From positions 1 through 20,912 of the IMG/VR virus record IMGVR_UViG_3300046533_000741: DNA of 20,912 nucleotides; one strand, given 5' to 3'. Positions 1,329-11,135 of this stretch are shown one piece after another (position 1 is the stretch's first letter; every line of letters starts with the position of its first letter). Source of the DNA: a virus. A program made the position numbers and the translations under genes. The notes below the pieces were generated by a model. It ran no database searches. It was not told where the DNA came from and saw nothing but the letters and a program-made list of their open reading frames with translations.

Positions 1329-4220
1329 ATGGCCGTCCAGACCATCTGGCTGCTGGGGACGGCGGGTGTCACGCCGAACTTCTTCGGCAATACGCAGCTT
1401 AACGGCAGCGCGCCGACCGCGGCCAACACGGCGTTCGGTTGGGGTCCGGCCAAGACCGCTGTCACCACGCCGTATTTTCGGGGCCGTTTGGGCGCCACGA
1501 CGACAGGCAGTGATGCCGCCGTCGCCAGTTCCTACAACGCGGGCACGTCAGGACCGACCAGAGGCACCGGCACGGGCGCCGCCACGGCGGGCGACAGTTT
1601 CATCGCGGGTCCGTTCTCCGGCACCTTCGCCGCCACCGCCTGGACCTTCAATTGTAATATCCGCGCGAGCACGGCCGGCGCCGTCGGCCACATCAACATG
1701 CGCTTTTGGCGATCCGCCAACGCGGACGGCTCGAGCGCGACTCAAATCACCGCCAACACCGTGGGCGCGACGGTCACGCTGTCCACCACGGCAGACGTTA
1801 ACAGTTCAATCACCTGGTCGCCAGGCGCGCTCGACCTCAACGCCCAGTACCTGTTCTTTCAGGTCGAGTGGCAGGAGACCACCGCCGGATCAAGCAACAA
1901 CGACAACGTCTTCTTTCGCATCGGCACGGCCTCGATCACCACGGCGGATTACGTCGCCGCCGCGCTGGGCACGCTATCGCTCACCCAGGCCAGCCAGACC
2001 CTGTCGTCCGTTGGTCAGGTCAGAGTCAACGGCACGCTCTCTCTCACCCAGGCGGCGCAAACGCTGGCCGCCGCGGGCGGCGGACTACCACCCATCACCG
2101 GAGGAGTTGGAGGATCTCCAGATACAAACACGGTGTTGTTGATTCACGCCGATGGCGCCAACGGCTCGACGACATTCACCGATGCTTCTTCTTACGCGCA
2201 CACGTTGTCGGTCATCAACAGCGCCCAGGTCACCACCGCCGCGTCGAAGTTCGGGACTGGCAGCGCGAAATTCGACGGCGATTCCGGTGCCTTCATCGAC
2301 ACCGGGAACGTCACGGATTTTCAGTTCGGATCGGCGCCGTTCACGATCGAGGCGTGGGCTTATTACACGTCGGCGCCTGGGAGCGCCACCAAAGCAATCA
2401 CCGCCGTGTGGGGACCGGAAGGCAACGATTCATGGTGGTTAGGAAACAGTAACAACGGCCTGATGTTCTTGTGGTCAACGACCGGTGTTTACGACGGCGG
2501 CAAGGTTCTTCAGCCCGGTGGTTTCACTCCCACACTCAACACCTGGTATCACATCGCGGCTGACCGGGACGCCTCCGGCATGCTGCGGATGTACATCAAC
2601 GGCGCGGTCTACGCATCACAAAGCATCACCGACTTTTTCTCCGCGAATGGCGGAACCTGTACCGTCGGTGGCGATCATGTGAACGCCGGGAACGGCTTCA
2701 CCGGCTACCTCGACGAGGTCCGGGTCACCAAGGGCGTGGCTCGCTACGGTGGCGCTTTTACCCCGCCAACCGCGCCCTTCACTATCGCCGCGCCGCTGGC
2801 GCAGGCCAACCACACCATCGCCGCCACGGGCGATGTGCCGCTTCTGCCTCCCACGGCGATCCTCGCGCTGACCGAGATCAGCGACACGATCTCGGCGGCG
2901 GCAACGGTCGGTCCCGACTCCGGTATCAGCGGAGGGCTTGGCGACCCCAACGCCTCCATCCCGATCCCGGTGGATCTTCTGGTTCACGCGGACGCCGCCG
3001 CCGGAACAACGGTGTTCACCGACGCATCCGGCAACAACTGGCCGATCACGACACTGGGCGATGCCCATGTCGGAAGCGCGGCGAAATTCGGCACCGGGTC
3101 CATGGCGTTCGGCCCGCCTTCGTCAACGATCTCGCAATTGGCGATAGGCGGGCCGGGTGACTTCCACATCCCTGGCTTTACGCCGTTCACGATCGAATTC
3201 TGGGCCTGGTTTAACACCGATCCCACCGCCAGAACCCGCATTTTCACGGGTAAATGGGGGCCAGGCGGCAACGAATGGGTATTGGCCCTCGTCAATTCCG
3301 GCACCTTTACTTTCGTCTACACAACAAACGGAAGTGACTACCAGCTCGTCGGCTTAACCATACTCGCGTCGACAGATATCGGGAAGTGGATACATTTCGC
3401 GCTCGCCGGAGACGCCACCAACTTTAGAGCCTTTGTCAACGGTTCTATCGCGGGCTTTGGTTATCGTAACACACCATTTTATTTGAGTTCCTCCATAACC
3501 GGAATCGGCAACGACCCCGGTGACGGCGCGTCCGCTAATTTCGACGGCTACATCGATGAACTGGCGATCACCATCGGTACGTGCCGCTATATTGCCGATT
3601 TCATCCCGCCTTATAAACCGTATCGGGCTTTCTCCGACCCCGGCTACATGGTCCAGGGCGCGCAGACCCTCGCGGCCACGGGCACGGTCGCTGATCCGGT
3701 CAGCGGCAACGTCGGCACGCTCAATCTCACGCAGGCGTCGCAGACGCTGTTCGGCACCGCGAAGGTCGCGGTCGACGGCACGCTGGGCCTCACTCAACAG
3801 CCGCAAACGCTGGCCGCGACCGGCGGTGTGGCCCTCGGCGCCACGCTGGGCCTCACACAGGCACCACAGACGATCGCCGCCGCGGGCGGGGTCACCGTCA
3901 CCGGCACGCTGGGCCTGACCCAGCAGCCGCAGACACTCGCGGCGGTCGGGCGTGTGCTGGTCGGTGGCGCGCTGGGCCTGACGCAACAGTCCCAGACGTT
4001 GCTGGCGGCGGGGCAGATCCTGGTGACGGGCACGTTGTCGATCGCGCAGGCGCCTCAGACGCTGTCCGCGTTCGGCACGGTCGTCTCGCCTGGCGTCATC
4101 GTCGGCAACCTCAACCTGACGCAGGATGACCATGTGTTGAGCGCCACCGGCACCGTGCCCGCGAACGACACGGGAATCATGGAGACGCAGTACTATTACC
4201 GCCGACGAATGAGGAGATAA
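1329..4220 (+). CDS. Tail fibre/receptor-binding protein with two LamG domains
   Basis: 963 aa, starting 3 nt after the previous stop. Residues 1-210 are a Thr/Ala/Ser-rich beta-type domain. Residues 213-253 hold two copies of a GTLSLTQAxQTL unit. Residues ~265-483 and ~548-768 are two concanavalin-like LamG domains (LLIHADGANGSTTFTDASS and LLVHADAAAGTTVFTDASG starts, APFTIEAWAYY/TPFTIEFWAWF strands, GYLDEVRVTKG/GYIDELAITIG ends). Residues ~796-945 are seven further 21-residue GTLGLTQQPQTLAATGGV-type repeats, and the protein ends in a basic YYYRRRMRR tail. LamG domains bind carbohydrate, so a host-surface adhesin on the virion is the likely role. It is the largest gene here, in a tail context. 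The low-complexity repeats may be a spacer or a trimeric shaft. Confidence 0.8.
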   Translation: MAVQTIWLLGTAGVTPNFFGNTQLNGSAPTAANTAFGWGPAKTAVTTPYFRGRLGATTTGSDAAVASSYNAGTSGPTRGTGTGAATAGDSFIAGPFSGTFAATAWTFNCNIRASTAGAVGHINMRFWRSANADGSSATQITANTVGATVTLSTTADVNSSITWSPGALDLNAQYLFFQVEWQETTAGSSNNDNVFFRIGTASITTADYVAAALGTLSLTQASQTLSSVGQVRVNGTLSLTQAAQTLAAAGGGLPPITGGVGGSPDTNTVLLIHADGANGSTTFTDASSYAHTLSVINSAQVTTAASKFGTGSAKFDGDSGAFIDTGNVTDFQFGSAPFTIEAWAYYTSAPGSATKAITAVWGPEGNDSWWLGNSNNGLMFLWSTTGVYDGGKVLQPGGFTPTLNTWYHIAADRDASGMLRMYINGAVYASQSITDFFSANGGTCTVGGDHVNAGNGFTGYLDEVRVTKGVARYGGAFTPPTAPFTIAAPLAQANHTIAATGDVPLLPPTAILALTEISDTISAAATVGPDSGISGGLGDPNASIPIPVDLLVHADAAAGTTVFTDASGNNWPITTLGDAHVGSAAKFGTGSMAFGPPSSTISQLAIGGPGDFHIPGFTPFTIEFWAWFNTDPTARTRIFTGKWGPGGNEWVLALVNSGTFTFVYTTNGSDYQLVGLTILASTDIGKWIHFALAGDATNFRAFVNGSIAGFGYRNTPFYLSSSITGIGNDPGDGASANFDGYIDELAITIGTCRYIADFIPPYKPYRAFSDPGYMVQGAQTLAATGTVADPVSGNVGTLNLTQASQTLFGTAKVAVDGTLGLTQQPQTLAATGGVALGATLGLTQAPQTIAAAGGVTVTGTLGLTQQPQTLAAVGRVLVGGALGLTQQSQTLLAAGQILVTGTLSIAQAPQTLSAFGTVVSPGVIVGNLNLTQDDHVLSATGTVPANDTGIMETQYYYRRRMRR
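3714..4163 (+). repeat. 63-bp in-frame tandem repeats in the fibre gene
   Basis: Units start at 3714, 3777, 3840, 3903, 3966 and 4029, each exactly 63 bp (21 codons) apart, and at 4104 after a 12-bp insertion. Each unit encodes a variant of GTLGLTQQPQTLAATGGVxVx. Two further copies lie near 1965-2085, ahead of the first LamG domain. Copies are diverged at the nucleotide level, so the array is not freshly amplified, but the constant spacing suggests a repeated structural element. Confidence 0.9.
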
Positions 4221-6051: not shown

Positions 6052-6080
6052 GGGCGCGCACCCGACCTGGATGCGCGCCC
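6052..6080 (-). terminator. Hairpin terminator closing the long minus-strand array
   Basis: GGGCGCGCA (6052-6060) and TGCGCGCCC (6072-6080) form a perfect 9-bp stem with an 11-nt loop. Read on the minus strand it directly follows array C and is followed by TTTT (6051-6048), the layout of an intrinsic terminator. On the plus strand it lies 6 nt after the PDNTLP gene stop but has no T-run. Confidence 0.75.
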
Positions 6081-6305
6081 ACCTCGCCTCGCCCTACCAA
6101 GCCCCGCCACGCCGGACCCCGCCTAGCCCCGCCGCGCCCTACCCCGCCCGGCCCTGCCACGCCTCGCCGCGCCTCGCCTGACCTGACCACGCCCTGCCTC
6201 GCCGCGCCTCGCCTAACCACGGCGGGCCGCGCCAAGCCACACCTTGCCTAACCGGACCGTGCCCCGCCGGGCCACACCCCACCTCGGCGCGCCACGCCGA
6301 ACCTG
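6081..6305 (-). repeat. Array C: 45 phased NNGGY pentamers
   Basis: On the plus strand this reads (G/A)CCNN repeated every 5 nt; 43 of 45 units fit (exceptions at 6221-6225 and 6286-6290) and the phase never slips over 225 bp. Reverse-complemented it is NNGGC/T. It abuts the stop codon (6306-6308) of the 205-aa minus-strand gene on one side and the terminator hairpin on the other, so it would form the entire 3' UTR of that mRNA. The first two bases of each unit vary freely. It does not encode a sensible protein in any frame. Confidence 0.95.
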
Positions 6306-6923
6306 TTACGCCTCGGAAACGCTGTATTTCACGACGCTAAACCGTCCGTAGGTTGGTCGAAAATCGCCAACGCCGCCGATCCTGCCAGCGAGCGTGACGA
6401 CCTCGTGCAACTGATCCTGATTGACATATTCCGGTAGCGTCACCAAAAACCTGAAGTCACAGGTCCAGCCGACCCGCATCGCCGGGCGGATTCTGTTGAT
6501 GCCAGCACGCTGAATGACAACGCGGCGCCTGTCCTCGTAATCCCAGTCCTTTGTCCCAAAAGACGCCAGCGGCGTCAGCGAAACGATCGCCGCCTTGTAG
6601 AGATCCATGGCGGACTTTCTTGGAGAGCGCGGATCTTGCCTGAACTTCGAAGCCTGGATGATCGCGCCACGCAGGTATTCCCCGGGCATGCAGATCATTC
6701 CATTTTCGTCGCGATAGACATACGACTCGACATCGTCGGTCTTTTTCGCCGCGCTGTTTTTCGCGGCTTTCCCTTTGGTCTCAACGCTTTCCGCGTTCCA
6801 CCGATGGAACAGAACATCGGCTGACCCTCGGATCGAGACATTCGCGACGTACGGCAGCTCAGAGTTGATCGCCTCTTTGCCGCCATTCGTTACGTTATCT
6901 GTTATTCGTACGACCTTCGCCAT
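6306..6923 (-). CDS. RAMP-like phage protein of unknown function
   Basis: 205 aa, starting at ATG 6923 with AGGGGGA just upstream on the minus strand. Features: PYVANVSIRGSADVLFHRW near the N-terminus; a Lys/Ala-rich segment (KGKAAKNSAAKK); MPGEYLRGAII (about residue 79); FRQDPRSPRKSAMDLYKAAI; and GRIGGVGDFRPTYGRFSV near the C-terminus. I recall similar unannotated proteins in phage genomes. The PGxxLRGA motif and the glycine-rich GxxGGxGDFRPxYGRF loop resemble signatures of RAMP/Cas7-fold RNA-binding proteins, but this is a motif impression, not a proven homology. The gene is bracketed by pentamer arrays D and C, which should be its 5' and 3' UTRs, so autoregulation or binding of the array RNA is possible. 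Confidence 0.75.
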   Translation of the reverse strand: MAKVVRITDNVTNGGKEAINSELPYVANVSIRGSADVLFHRWNAESVETKGKAAKNSAAKKTDDVESYVYRDENGMICMPGEYLRGAIIQASKFRQDPRSPRKSAMDLYKAAIVSLTPLASFGTKDWDYEDRRRVVIQRAGINRIRPAMRVGWTCDFRFLVTLPEYVNQDQLHEVVTLAGRIGGVGDFRPTYGRFSVVKYSVSEA

Positions 6924-6939
6924 TTATTCCCCCTGTGAA

Positions 6940-7049
6940 ACCACGCCCGGCCAGACCCCACCTCGCCTGACCCCGCCCAGCCTCGCCTTGCCAGACCCAA
7001 GCCCGCCCAACCGCGCCGCGCCACGGCCAACCACGCCGCGCCACACCGC
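6940..7049 (-). repeat. Array D: 22 phased NNGGY pentamers
   Basis: Plus-strand (G/A)CCNN every 5 nt; 20 of 22 units match with no phase slip. It begins 8 nt after the minus-strand TAGGCT (7062-7057) and ends 16 nt before the ATG of the 205-aa gene, leaving room only for the ribosome site AGGGGGA. It therefore occupies essentially the whole predicted 5' UTR. Its length, 110 bp, is the same as array B. Confidence 0.95.
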
Positions 7050-7052
7050 GAG

Positions 7053-7101
7053 AGATAGCCTAGCCGTAATTTTTTGACCGGGTCAAGGGGCTAGGCTATC
7101 T
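7053..7101. promoter_or_regulatory. Nested inverted repeat, divergent control region
   Basis: AGATAGCCTAGCC (7053-7065) and GGCTAGGCTATCT (7089-7101) are perfect 13-bp inverted repeats. Between them lies a second palindrome, TTGACC-G-GGTCAA (7074-7086). The symmetrical layout gives a TTGACC -35 on each strand. It separates the RHH-like gene (plus) from array D and the 205-aa gene (minus), so it probably controls both, perhaps by binding the RHH-like product. Confidence 0.8.
7057..7086 (-). promoter_or_regulatory. Promoter for array D and the 205-aa gene
   Basis: Minus strand: TTGACC (7086-7081), an 18-nt spacer, TAGGCT (7062-7057). Transcription would begin near 7050, exactly where array D begins. 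The same TAGGCT precedes arrays A and B at the same distance. Confidence 0.5.
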
Positions 7102-8495: not shown

Positions 8496-8657
8496 ATGAG
8501 ACACATTATTGCAGCCGCGATATTGGCAGGAATCCTCACGAATTGCGCCCCCCCCGCACCGAGCCAGGGCTGGGGGGGCGCCTTCCCGGGTAACCCGATC
8601 GCCGTCTCGGTCTGGTCCCCGGCGGTTGAGTCAGCGGGCGACGGTCAGGGACCGTAA
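8496..8657 (+). CDS. Possible small proline-rich lipoprotein
   Basis: 53-aa frame starting MRHIIAAAILAGILTNCAPP: a basic N-terminus, hydrophobic core and a Cys at 17, which resembles a lipoprotein signal, although Asn before Cys is not a typical lipobox. The mature part is Pro/Gly/Ser-rich. Small proline-rich lipoproteins occur as outer-membrane spanin subunits (Rz1-like), so a lysis role is conceivable. No convincing ribosome site is visible, and it runs against the minus-strand genes, overlapping the end of the PEP-CTERM gene by 13 bp. Confidence 0.4.
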   Translation: MRHIIAAAILAGILTNCAPPAPSQGWGGAFPGNPIAVSVWSPAVESAGDGQGP

Positions 8658-9343
8658 CGCCGCCGACGACGGACGACGGCGAGACCGGCCAGGCCCGTTC
8701 CCAAAACAGCCAAGGTCATGGGTTCCGGCGTGTCCACGATGACCGGATTGATCACGCAGTCCGGACAGGTCGTGTTCACCGGGATTTCCTCGGAGACCAG
8801 CGAGTAGTTGTTCTGGCTCCCGACCCAGTCGATCTTCAGCGCGGTGGTGTAGTTCGCCCATGATCCCGACGTGAGCGTGGCTTCAAAACCGATGACGATC
8901 GGACCTGACAACAACCCGACCGGCGTCGGCGGGATCAGCGTGTTGTCGAAGCAGTAGAACCCACCCGATCCGTCGCAGCCGCTCGACGCCAGCCCGCCGG
9001 GGACGAAGTTGAACCCGTTGGCGCCCAGGGTCGTCACGCCGTTAACGCGAACACCGACGACCTGACCGCTGGAGGGGTTGTTTTTGGACACCGTGTTAAA
9101 CGCGATGGCGTTGATCCCGGTGCGCCCGCCGCGCGTGTCGGCGATCGAGTTCTCGCCCGCGATGACCAGCGCGAACTGTTCGGTGAGCGGATCGGCGGTG
9201 GCCTGGGCTTCCAGCGTGTAGACCAGGCCCTCGGTGGCGGCGTCAGGCCCCAGCGTGATCAGCGCGGCATGGGCCGGGGCCGAACACAGCGCGCCCGCGA
9301 CGACGCCGATCGCCGCCGCGGTCGCGAGGAGGTAAGCCCTCAC
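8645..9343 (-). CDS. PEP-CTERM sorting-domain protein 1
   Basis: 232 aa, GTG start at 9343 overlapping the upstream stop (GTGA), so translation is coupled to the second PEP-CTERM gene. A Sec signal peptide ends near residue 26 (LCSAPAHA). The mature part is a beta-rich secreted domain with cysteines (SGCDGSGGFYCF, TTCPDC). The C-terminus is the PEP-CTERM signal: PEP at 206-208, hydrophobic helix MTLAVLGTGLAGLAVV, then RRRRR. In bacteria with exosortase (EpsH/XrtA) such proteins are exported, cleaved and linked to exopolysaccharide production. No exosortase gene is seen here. It is unusual cargo next to phage genes. Confidence 0.85.
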   Translation of the reverse strand: MRAYLLATAAAIGVVAGALCSAPAHAALITLGPDAATEGLVYTLEAQATADPLTEQFALVIAGENSIADTRGGRTGINAIAFNTVSKNNPSSGQVVGVRVNGVTTLGANGFNFVPGGLASSGCDGSGGFYCFDNTLIPPTPVGLLSGPIVIGFEATLTSGSWANYTTALKIDWVGSQNNYSLVSEEIPVNTTCPDCVINPVIVDTPEPMTLAVLGTGLAGLAVVRRRRRYGP

Positions 9344-10011
9344 GCCGGGAGACCCGCATGCGTATCTTTACGTACCCGACGCCGGGCGACAGCGCCCAGG
9401 CCGATGAGGCCCACGCCCAGTAGCGCCAGCGAGGCCGGTTCCGGGGCGGCGGTGGTGGACGACGCCACGCCGCTGTAGGACGCCGAGAAACTCGCCAAGG
9501 TCGCGTTGTCCAGGGCGAGCGCGGGCGCCAGGTTGGACAATGACAACGTGAAGGTGTTCGGCGCGGCGAGATCCGCCGCCGCGATCACGCTGGACGTGAG
9601 CGAGAGGGTATCAGGCGGGTTGGCGACGTTGATGGACAATTGTTCGCCGGTCGCCAAACCAAACGCCGCGTCGGAAAACGTTCCGGAAAGGAAATTAGTT
9701 CCGGCGCCGCCTGCCAACGACGTGATGGCGAACGTCCCGCTGTAGTGCTGCAACAGCGCGGGACCGATGCCTTGCGCGGCGTCGATCGATGTCGCGTTGA
9801 GGTCGAGGAAGCCGGTGGTCGGCGCGTTGCCGAACAGTTGCGTGATCGAAATGGCGGAGTCGGTGGAGAGCGTGGTGGCCGTGCCCGCGCCGTTCGCGAC
9901 CGCCGTCAGCGTGTTGGTGTCGGAAACCTGGCCGAACGCGATTATTTGTGTCGCATTCGCACTGACAGACAGGCCCAGGACGGCGACCGTGGCGAGGAGG
10001 AGGTTTCGCAT
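9340..10011 (-). CDS. PEP-CTERM sorting-domain protein 2
   Basis: 223 aa from ATG 10011, chosen because AAGGGGA lies just upstream and the protein then begins with a proper signal peptide (MRNLLLATVAVLGLSVSANA); the frame is open further upstream to 10086 without a signal. The mature part is Ala/Thr/Ser-rich and beta-like. The PEP motif is at residues 190-192, followed by ASLALLGVGLIGLGAVA and RRRVRK, a textbook PEP-CTERM signal. It is the first gene of a two-gene coupled unit with PEP-CTERM protein 1. An extracellular, exopolysaccharide-associated role in the host is likely; exosortase must come from elsewhere. Confidence 0.85.
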   Translation of the reverse strand: MRNLLLATVAVLGLSVSANATQIIAFGQVSDTNTLTAVANGAGTATTLSTDSAISITQLFGNAPTTGFLDLNATSIDAAQGIGPALLQHYSGTFAITSLAGGAGTNFLSGTFSDAAFGLATGEQLSINVANPPDTLSLTSSVIAAADLAAPNTFTLSLSNLAPALALDNATLASFSASYSGVASSTTAAPEPASLALLGVGLIGLGAVARRRVRKDTHAGLPA

Positions 10012-10130
10012 GATGGTTCCCCTTGTATGTTTGGGGGAGTTTAATGCGCTGGCGGTGATCCGTCTCGCGAAAACGTCACGTTGCAAAAACAGTGGGTTAT
10101 GCCGCGAAACACCGAAACGACCGACATAGT

Positions 10131-10152: not shown

Positions 10153-10192
10153 TTTCGCTGGAACGGCGGGCAGGAGCGGGCTAGGCTAGCCA
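10153..10192 (+). promoter_or_regulatory. Promoter-like block of array A
   Basis: A block from TTTTCGCTGGAACGG to TAGGCTAGCC is nearly repeated at 10932-10972. TAGGCT (10182-10187) lies 9 nt before the array. CTGGAA at an 18-nt spacing is a weak -35 candidate. The conserved element between two otherwise unrelated neighbourhoods suggests shared transcription control. Confidence 0.5.
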
Positions 10193-10194
10193 TT

Positions 10195-10476
10195 CACGGC
10201 GCGGCGCGGTGTGGCTTGGCGTGGCATGGCATGGCTTGGCGTGGCTGGGCGTGGCTTGGTTGGCCCGGGTCAGGCTTGGCGTGATTGGGCTTGCCGGGGC
10301 GTGGTGGGGCGAGGCCCGGCGTGGCAGGGCTTGCCATGGCCAGGCTGGGCAGGGCGGGCCGGGGCGGGGCGTGGCCGGGTTCGGCGAGGCATGGCAGGGC
10401 GGGGCCTGGTCAGGCTTGGTATGGTATGGGAGGCGTTTACGCCTCGGTCCCGTCCGGCTTCCCGCCGGGCGGGGCC
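10195..10476 (+). ncRNA. Candidate array RNA A
   Basis: Predicted transcript from the TAGGCT promoter through 46 pentamers to two hairpins: GAGGCG-TTTA-CGCCTC (10430-10445) and a 13-bp stem at 10446-10476 with loop TTCCC and two G-U pairs in the plus-strand RNA. No T-run follows. Expression is not shown; the call rests on the architecture shared with array B. Confidence 0.4.
10196..10425 (+). repeat. Array A: 46 phased NNGGY pentamers
   Basis: Reads ACGGC GCGGC GCGGT GTGGC and so on, 46 units in constant 5-nt phase; 41 match NNGGY (exceptions include TGGCC, GTGAT, two TTGCC and GGGCC). C dominates over T at position 5. The first two bases are variable, so this is not a simple identical satellite. 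All three frames are open for long stretches, giving Trp/Gly/Ala-rich ORFs that are artefacts of the composition. Confidence 0.95.
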
Positions 10477-10931: not shown

Positions 10932-10972
10932 CTTTCGCTGGAACGGTGGTCAGGAACCGGATAGGCTAGCCA
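10932..10972 (+). promoter_or_regulatory. Promoter-like block of array B
   Basis: Near copy of 10153-10192: CTTTCGCTGGAACGG, a variable middle, then TAGGCTAGCC with TAGGCT at 10962-10967, 8 nt before the array. It lies between the 57-aa minus-strand gene and the array. Confidence 0.5.
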
Positions 10973-10973
10973 T

Positions 10974-11135
10974 CCCGGCGCGGCCAGGCGGGGCATGGCG
11001 CGGCTTGGCGTGGCGCGGCAAGGCGGGGTCTGCCGGGGTTAGGTCCGGTCTGGCCGGGTCGGGCGGGCCATGGCGCGGTTCGGTATGGGAGGCGTTTACG
11101 CCTCGGCCCCGTCCAACTTCCCCTTGGACGGGGCC
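10974..11135 (+). ncRNA. Candidate array RNA B
   Basis: Predicted short counterpart of RNA A: 22 pentamers, then GAGGCG-TTTA-CGCCTC (11089-11104), then a perfect 12-bp stem GGCCCCGTCCAA/TTGGACGGGGCC (11105-11135). Compared with A, stem positions 11 and 12 change from G-C to A-T on both sides, a compensatory change. Confidence 0.4.
10975..11084 (+). repeat. Array B: 22 phased NNGGY pentamers
   Basis: 22 units, 20 matching NNGGY (exceptions CTGCC and GGGCC), no phase slip. It runs from the end of the promoter-like block to GGTATGGGAGGCG, the same junction that ends array A. Its length equals that of array D. Confidence 0.95.

Follow-up and report, generated by a model that had tools for sequence, protein, structure and literature searches.

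A 205-aa gene in a phage genome is framed on both sides by long arrays of pentamers, and the locus raises the question of what these arrays do. The original prediction described a single minus-strand transcript whose two untranslated regions are filled by the arrays, and offered two options: the arrays act on this transcript, or the gene product acts on the arrays. The DNA analyzed here, referred to as the window, is the whole 20,912-bp IMG/VR virus record with a GC content of 65%. Phage genes for a Gam-like end protection protein, an Erf-like annealing protein, a helicase, and baseplate-like proteins were found within the window.

The predicted array-gene-array layout holds almost to the base, with 22 and 45 in-phase GGYNN units flanking the gene on the same strand (Table 1). 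Array D has exactly 22 units in a single phase; it starts 9 nt past TAGGCT and ends about 15 nt before the start codon. Similarly, array C has exactly 45 units in a single phase and starts 2 nt past the stop codon, or at the very next base if the units are written as NNGGY. The TTGACC-N18-TAGGCT site is present and promoter-like, with TTGACC at 7086-7081 and TAGGCT at 7062-7057. The final hairpin with TTTT is present as well, but the stem folds as 12 bp and not as the 9 bp given earlier. The earlier list of arrays was incomplete, since arrays A and B on the plus strand had been left out. Both lie elsewhere, which shows that arrays of this kind do not depend on the untranslated regions of the 205-aa gene.

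Table 1 Features of the locus within the window, with the basis of each assignment.
Feature	Position	Strand	Basis
vipr gene, 205 aa, Vipr RAMP-type protein	6306..6923	-	Profile matches to 36pp and the SUSP1 gene
Leader array D with 22 GGYNN units, located between promoter and ribosome site, without structured tail	6938..7047	-	Sequence
Array C, 45 GGYNN units immediately 3' of the stop codon	6079..6303	-	Sequence
12-bp hairpin then TTTT, which likely terminates array C RNA and forms its 3' end	6052..6080	-	Folding z -5.45
Promoter-like TTGACC-N18-TAGGCT ahead of array D	7057..7086	-	TAGGCT common to A and B at near-equal distance to the first unit
Array A, 46 GGYNN units, last unit GGTAT	10198..10427	+	Sequence; identical in relatives L003 and L203
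Promoter-like TGGAAC-N17-TAGGCT of array A	10159..10187	+	46-nt leader 85% identical to array B leader
Array A tail, two hairpins (6 bp, 13 bp)	10430..10476	+	Folding z -5.26
Array B, 22 GGYNN units, last unit GGTAT	10977..11086	+	Sequence
Promoter-like TGGAAC-N17-TAGGCT of array B	10939..10967	+	Leader comparison with array A, sequence
Array B tail, two hairpins (6 bp, 12 bp), second covarying with its array A counterpart	11089..11135	+	Folding z -6.04

Two further features of the window were observed. The array D promoter sits within a long inverted repeat at 7050-7100 (GATAGCCTAGCC ... GGCTAGGCTATC around TTGACCCGGTCAA), which is possibly an operator or a two-way promoter. PEP-CTERM sorting motifs are present in two adjacent genes at 8645-10086, and the near-identical phages have both genes too.

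The protein encoded between the arrays was then compared with known families. No Pfam match was found for the window protein, and none was consistent across its family. In PHROGs, the window protein matched phrog_4652, a family of unknown function (E 4.7e-16). The only PDB match of the family profile, which was made from 42 relatives, was 36pp, the "SUSP1 Vipr protein" (E 9.6e-12). The same profile also detected vipr in the genome of phage SUSP1 (E 6.7e-15). Conserved motifs within the protein are QDPRSPRKSAMDL and the G-loop-like GVGDFRPTYGRF; the latter is nearly invariant in the family and aligns with GVGDWRPRFGRF of SUSP1. Judged by these matches, the 205-aa product is a distant homologue of Vipr (E about 1e-11), and the same evidence names phrog_4652 as a Vipr family. 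No vap-like gene was recognized beside vipr in the window; several vap types exist, and some may escape recognition. No CRISPR repeat-spacer array was found, and no cas family was matched among the proteins scanned around the locus.

VIPR was described in a 2026 preprint (PMC13142463). As described there, VIPR consists of a RAMP-type protein, mostly encoded by phages, and of RNAs with alternating GGY and NN within the flanks of vipr. Vipr binds the GGY/NN RNAs in the two systems tested, and the NN pairs form a gapped guide that recognizes double-stranded DNA in trans, with one base skipped per unit (PMC13142463). In that work, the complex is a transcriptional repressor directed against competing phages, and rival VIPR systems are among the reported guide targets. 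An RRM core, a G-loop, and a thumb are given as fold features. Seven VIPR types with varying architecture are described there, and in the characterized SUSP1 and P. fulva clades, 9-16 repeats precede a structured 3' tail that does not vary. VIPR was proposed to be older than CRISPR, and common descent of its RAMP protein with class 1 CRISPR-Cas was also proposed (PMC13142463).

As a positive control, the same profile and array detector were applied to the SUSP1 genome over its first 50 kb. The Vipr gene was recovered together with three arrays of 11-15 units. Two of these arrays end in GGTAT, and all three are followed by a GGGT tail. The GGTAT-GG junction between array and tail was also seen at arrays A and B of the window.

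To define the repeat, 131 units from the four window arrays were tabulated. All of them have G at position 1 and a pyrimidine at position 3 (131/131 for each). At position 2, 120 units have G and 10 have C, and positions 4-5 show all four bases. No array appeared in 20 mononucleotide shuffles of the window, nor in 10 shuffles scored with the looser GGY criterion. A functionless microsatellite, generated by slippage and now decaying, would agree with the gains and losses of units in relatives L004 and L003, which look like slippage or recombination. However, G1 and Y3 are invariant while positions 4-5 vary freely, and this position-specific conservation already refutes the microsatellite: with three of the five positions spared, decay is ruled out. 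The array pattern is also conserved over genomes of 37-70% GC. The probability left to this explanation is negligible.

The association of arrays and gene was investigated among relatives. A protein search of viral contigs gave 80 relatives, and 63 of them, differing by more than 5%, were kept as non-redundant. Arrays were detectable at the gene in 59 of the 63. They lie on both sides in 16, downstream only in 27 (plus 2 with the upstream side missing), and upstream only in 14. Most 3' arrays begin no more than 20 nt past the stop codon, and most 5' arrays end 15-40 nt ahead of the start codon. Within bacterial genomes, 33 of 35 loci have arrays on the strand of the gene; these loci come from Phycisphaerales, Alphaproteobacteria, cyanobacteria, Alicyclobacillus, and others, covering many phyla. 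Relatives of the gene thus consistently have arrays, in line with the predicted association; the strict array-gene-array order was detected only in the 16 relatives with arrays on both sides. The search was also performed in reverse. A pattern of eight GGC spaced by two bases was used alone to search viral contigs, and 120 contigs were found. The Vipr profile matched in 69 of these 120 contigs, and 68 of the 69 matches are on the strand of the arrays. In 94 control viral contigs, no Vipr profile match and no array was found.

Several features of individual relatives were recorded. The longest uninterrupted arrays have 140 units (L043, 5603-6302) and 113 units (L007, upstream of vipr). In relatives L031, L036, L050, and L072, the guides are separated by several kinds of repeated, hairpin-rich element ranging from 54 to about 100 nt, and these inter-array elements were unmatched in Rfam. 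Hammerhead and other known ribozymes were considered as elements between the arrays of relatives, and none scored above the Rfam threshold at array gaps. A Twister-P5 ribozyme match above the Rfam threshold is located in relative phage contig L040 (2401-2477), away from any array gap. In the cultured Mycobacterium phage Quico (NC_028751.1), gp57 (3268-3867) is annotated as hypothetical. The Vipr profile identifies it as a relative (bits 34.6), and a long GGCNN array lies upstream of it; phage Florinda has the same DNA match. Quico, which infects the laboratory host M. smegmatis mc2155, apparently carries a VIPR locus.

The leaders and tails of the arrays were also compared. The leaders of arrays A and B are near-identical, and in arrays A, B, and D the TAGGCT ends about 9-10 nt ahead of the first unit. 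From this spacing, transcription of the three arrays should start at the array itself. The second stem in the tails of A and B keeps its pairing despite the differing sequence (z -5.3 and -6.0), and the corresponding tail in relative L003 keeps the layout with changed letters. Array C is closed by a terminator-like hairpin, and array D runs to the ribosome site without a structured tail. Similarly, the 5' array reaches the ribosome site in about 30 relatives, mostly with no room for a structured tail; the commonest ends are GGTTT, GGCTT, or similar. Tandem arrays of phage genomes are often origins or partition sites. The repeats could accordingly be iterons, or packaging or partition sites, read as double-stranded DNA by a phage protein. 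Against such DNA-level repeats, 121 of the 126 near arrays in the 63 relatives lie on the strand of the gene (121:5). Furthermore, promoters stand ahead of the arrays and hairpins behind them, and the window has arrays on both strands. This explanation is regarded as extremely improbable.

Comparison of near-identical phages revealed the turnover of the variable bases. Relative L003 shares 97-99% identity with the window. In L003, array D comprises 41 units, compared with 22 in the window, and only the first 6 are alike. Its array B has 32 units, compared with 22, of which the first 7 are alike and the rest different. Arrays A and C are unchanged between the two phages. In relative L004, four units replace one within array C. 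The Vipr proteins of relatives L071 and L072 are almost alike, and the guides of the two differ in NN with GGY kept constant; within L072, a 54-nt tail of nearly constant sequence follows each of four guides. On these alignments, whole array stretches are swapped among near-identical phages. Such replacement of NN with retention of GGY would be the pattern expected of guides selected for new targets, and not of a fixed cis element.

This turnover also bears on cis regulation of the kind known from TRAP, the trp RNA-binding attenuation protein, whose sites are RNA triplets two bases apart. A protein of this kind would bind the spaced triplets in the untranslated regions of its own mRNA and control its own translation or decay, and the arrays would be regulatory sites. 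The triplet-NN spacing is indeed similar, the arrays lie exactly in the untranslated regions, and in most relatives with a leader array, this array stops 15-40 nt short of the start codon. However, arrays A and B are located 3-4 kb away with promoters and tails of their own, and a fixed operator has no need for the wholesale exchange of NN. The precedent of Vipr is also a guide in trans (PMC13142463). Regulation of this kind is therefore considered improbable, with a small chance remaining.

To test the gapped code, 10-unit stretches of 589 arrays were compared with 201 loci and the window after masking of the arrays, allowing 0-3 bases to be skipped. The raw counts favor one skip (64 matches of 19-20 bases versus 0-3), but they overstate the effect because conserved targets recur across related loci, and per-array counts were used. 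With one skip, 4 arrays have matches of at least 19/20 (20/20 in one relative array and 19/20 in three), compared with 0, 0, and 1 in three unit-shuffled controls and with 2, 0, and 0 arrays for 0, 2, and 3 skips. Arrays matching at least 3 loci number 6 with one skip, 0, 0, and 0 in the shuffles, and 1, 0, and 0 with the other skips. The per-array excess is modest; it favors a one-skip code and is supportive rather than decisive.

In the clearest case, the first 3' array of relative L005 fits the codons of the Vipr G-loop (GDFRPTYGRF) in antisense, and the base that is skipped falls on the wobble position. The fit is 20/20 in five relatives, 19/20 in the window vipr (6337-6366), and 18/20 in the vipr copy of L005 itself. 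This guide looks like one aimed at rival VIPR systems. Guides at L057 6473-6557 and L005 5745-6154 fit codons for conserved motifs of phage helicases encoded near vipr in other relatives (18/20), and this suggests that phage helicase genes are common guide targets.

For the guides of the window itself (arrays A-D), no convincing target was found in the collections searched. Array B gave 22 exact 8-unit matches, none of which extended. Scans with arrays D, C, and A gave 11, 2, and 59 matches without convincing extension, and the array A matches at 19-20/22 are unsurprising, as they had been preselected on 16 bases. Arrays D and B had no target in 76 genomes from the order of a Rhodospirillales relative. 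When the arrays were translated as codon positions 1-2 and searched against PHROGs, Pfam, and phage genomes, nothing significant was found.

Taken together, it is highly probable that this is a phage VIPR locus, in which the Vipr protein and the GGYNN arrays, as guide RNAs, would repress genes of competing phages. On sequence grounds, the locus is placed in VIPR by the protein family, the arrays, the constant GGY with variable NN, the tails on two arrays, and the phage setting. What this analysis itself shows is the family of the protein, the arrays with their common promoters and tails, the turnover of the guides, and the constant association of arrays and gene together with their strand. Counted against a full fit are the long arrays (22-46 units), the tail-less array D, array C with only a terminator, the lack of a recognized vap, the lack of a target for the window's own guides, and the modest excess in the skip test.

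Of the two options in the original prediction, action of the gene product on the arrays fits, because the 205-aa protein is homologous to Vipr, which binds GGY/NN RNAs in the two systems tested. Action of the arrays on their own transcript does not appear to be the main function, given the precedent of guides in trans. With Vipr homology and GGY/NN RNAs both matching the VIPR precedent, the arrays are most likely guide RNAs rather than cis-acting elements of the untranslated regions. Guides in trans are also consistent with arrays A and B, which lie at a distance from the gene and have separate promoters. A secondary cis effect of leader array D may still hold.

In the proposed mechanism, the GGYNN arrays would be transcribed from the TAGGCT promoters as guide RNAs (vrRNAs). 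Vipr subunits would bind each GGY and leave the NN pairs free to read DNA. The NN pairs would read with one base skipped per unit, on a target strand of the form N1N2xN3N4x, and the Vipr-guide complex would repress genes of competing phages. For this locus, Vipr-RNA binding, DNA recognition, and repression are carried over from the published systems (PMC13142463). By the same analogy, the array RNAs of the window would be expressed and bound by its Vipr, and the window copy is presumed to work, with guides directed at rival phages. A more tentative proposal, somewhat unlikely on present evidence, concerns VIPR with long arrays: tail-less 5' arrays would be guide and switch at once, where Vipr loading on its own mRNA could stop its synthesis, and arrays of 22-140 units would carry many overlapping guides per RNA.

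VIPR is a newly described RNA route to DNA with a gapped code (PMC13142463). The present locus adds a clade found in phages and in the genomes of many bacterial phyla, and PHROG 4652 had no function until now. The clade contributes long arrays and direct evidence of guide exchange among near-identical phages, and a guide in one relative is apparently directed against those codons of rival vipr genes that are best conserved. The locus is also material for studying guide acquisition and the processing of long arrays.

The locus was finally compared with known systems. The array triplets are spaced by two bases as in TRAP sites; in contrast, there is no TRAP homology, and the window arrays are long, variable, and present away from the gene too. 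Class 1 CRISPR-Cas, with its Cas7-type RAMP backbone and crRNA, shares the guide principle with periodically skipped positions, as claimed in PMC13142463. The window differs in having no CRISPR repeats, spacers, or cas genes, in its five-base period, and in guide bases that are non-contiguous. The closest comparison is SUSP1 VIPR (type II; PMC13142463; PDB 36pp), which shares a homologous phage-encoded protein, hypervariable NN, and GGY/NN arrays up- and downstream of the gene on the strand of the gene. The last unit GGTAT followed by a structured tail starting with GG is likewise shared by arrays A and B. Unlike SUSP1, with 11-15 units detected, and unlike the characterized clades, with 9-16 repeats reported, the window has 22-46 units per array. 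Its leader array lacks a tail, array C ends in a terminator hairpin, two distant arrays have their own promoters, and no recognized vap adjoins vipr. VIPR itself is already known, and, as read from the sequence, the arrays of 22-46 units and the tail-less leader array are what distinguish this locus from those characterized.
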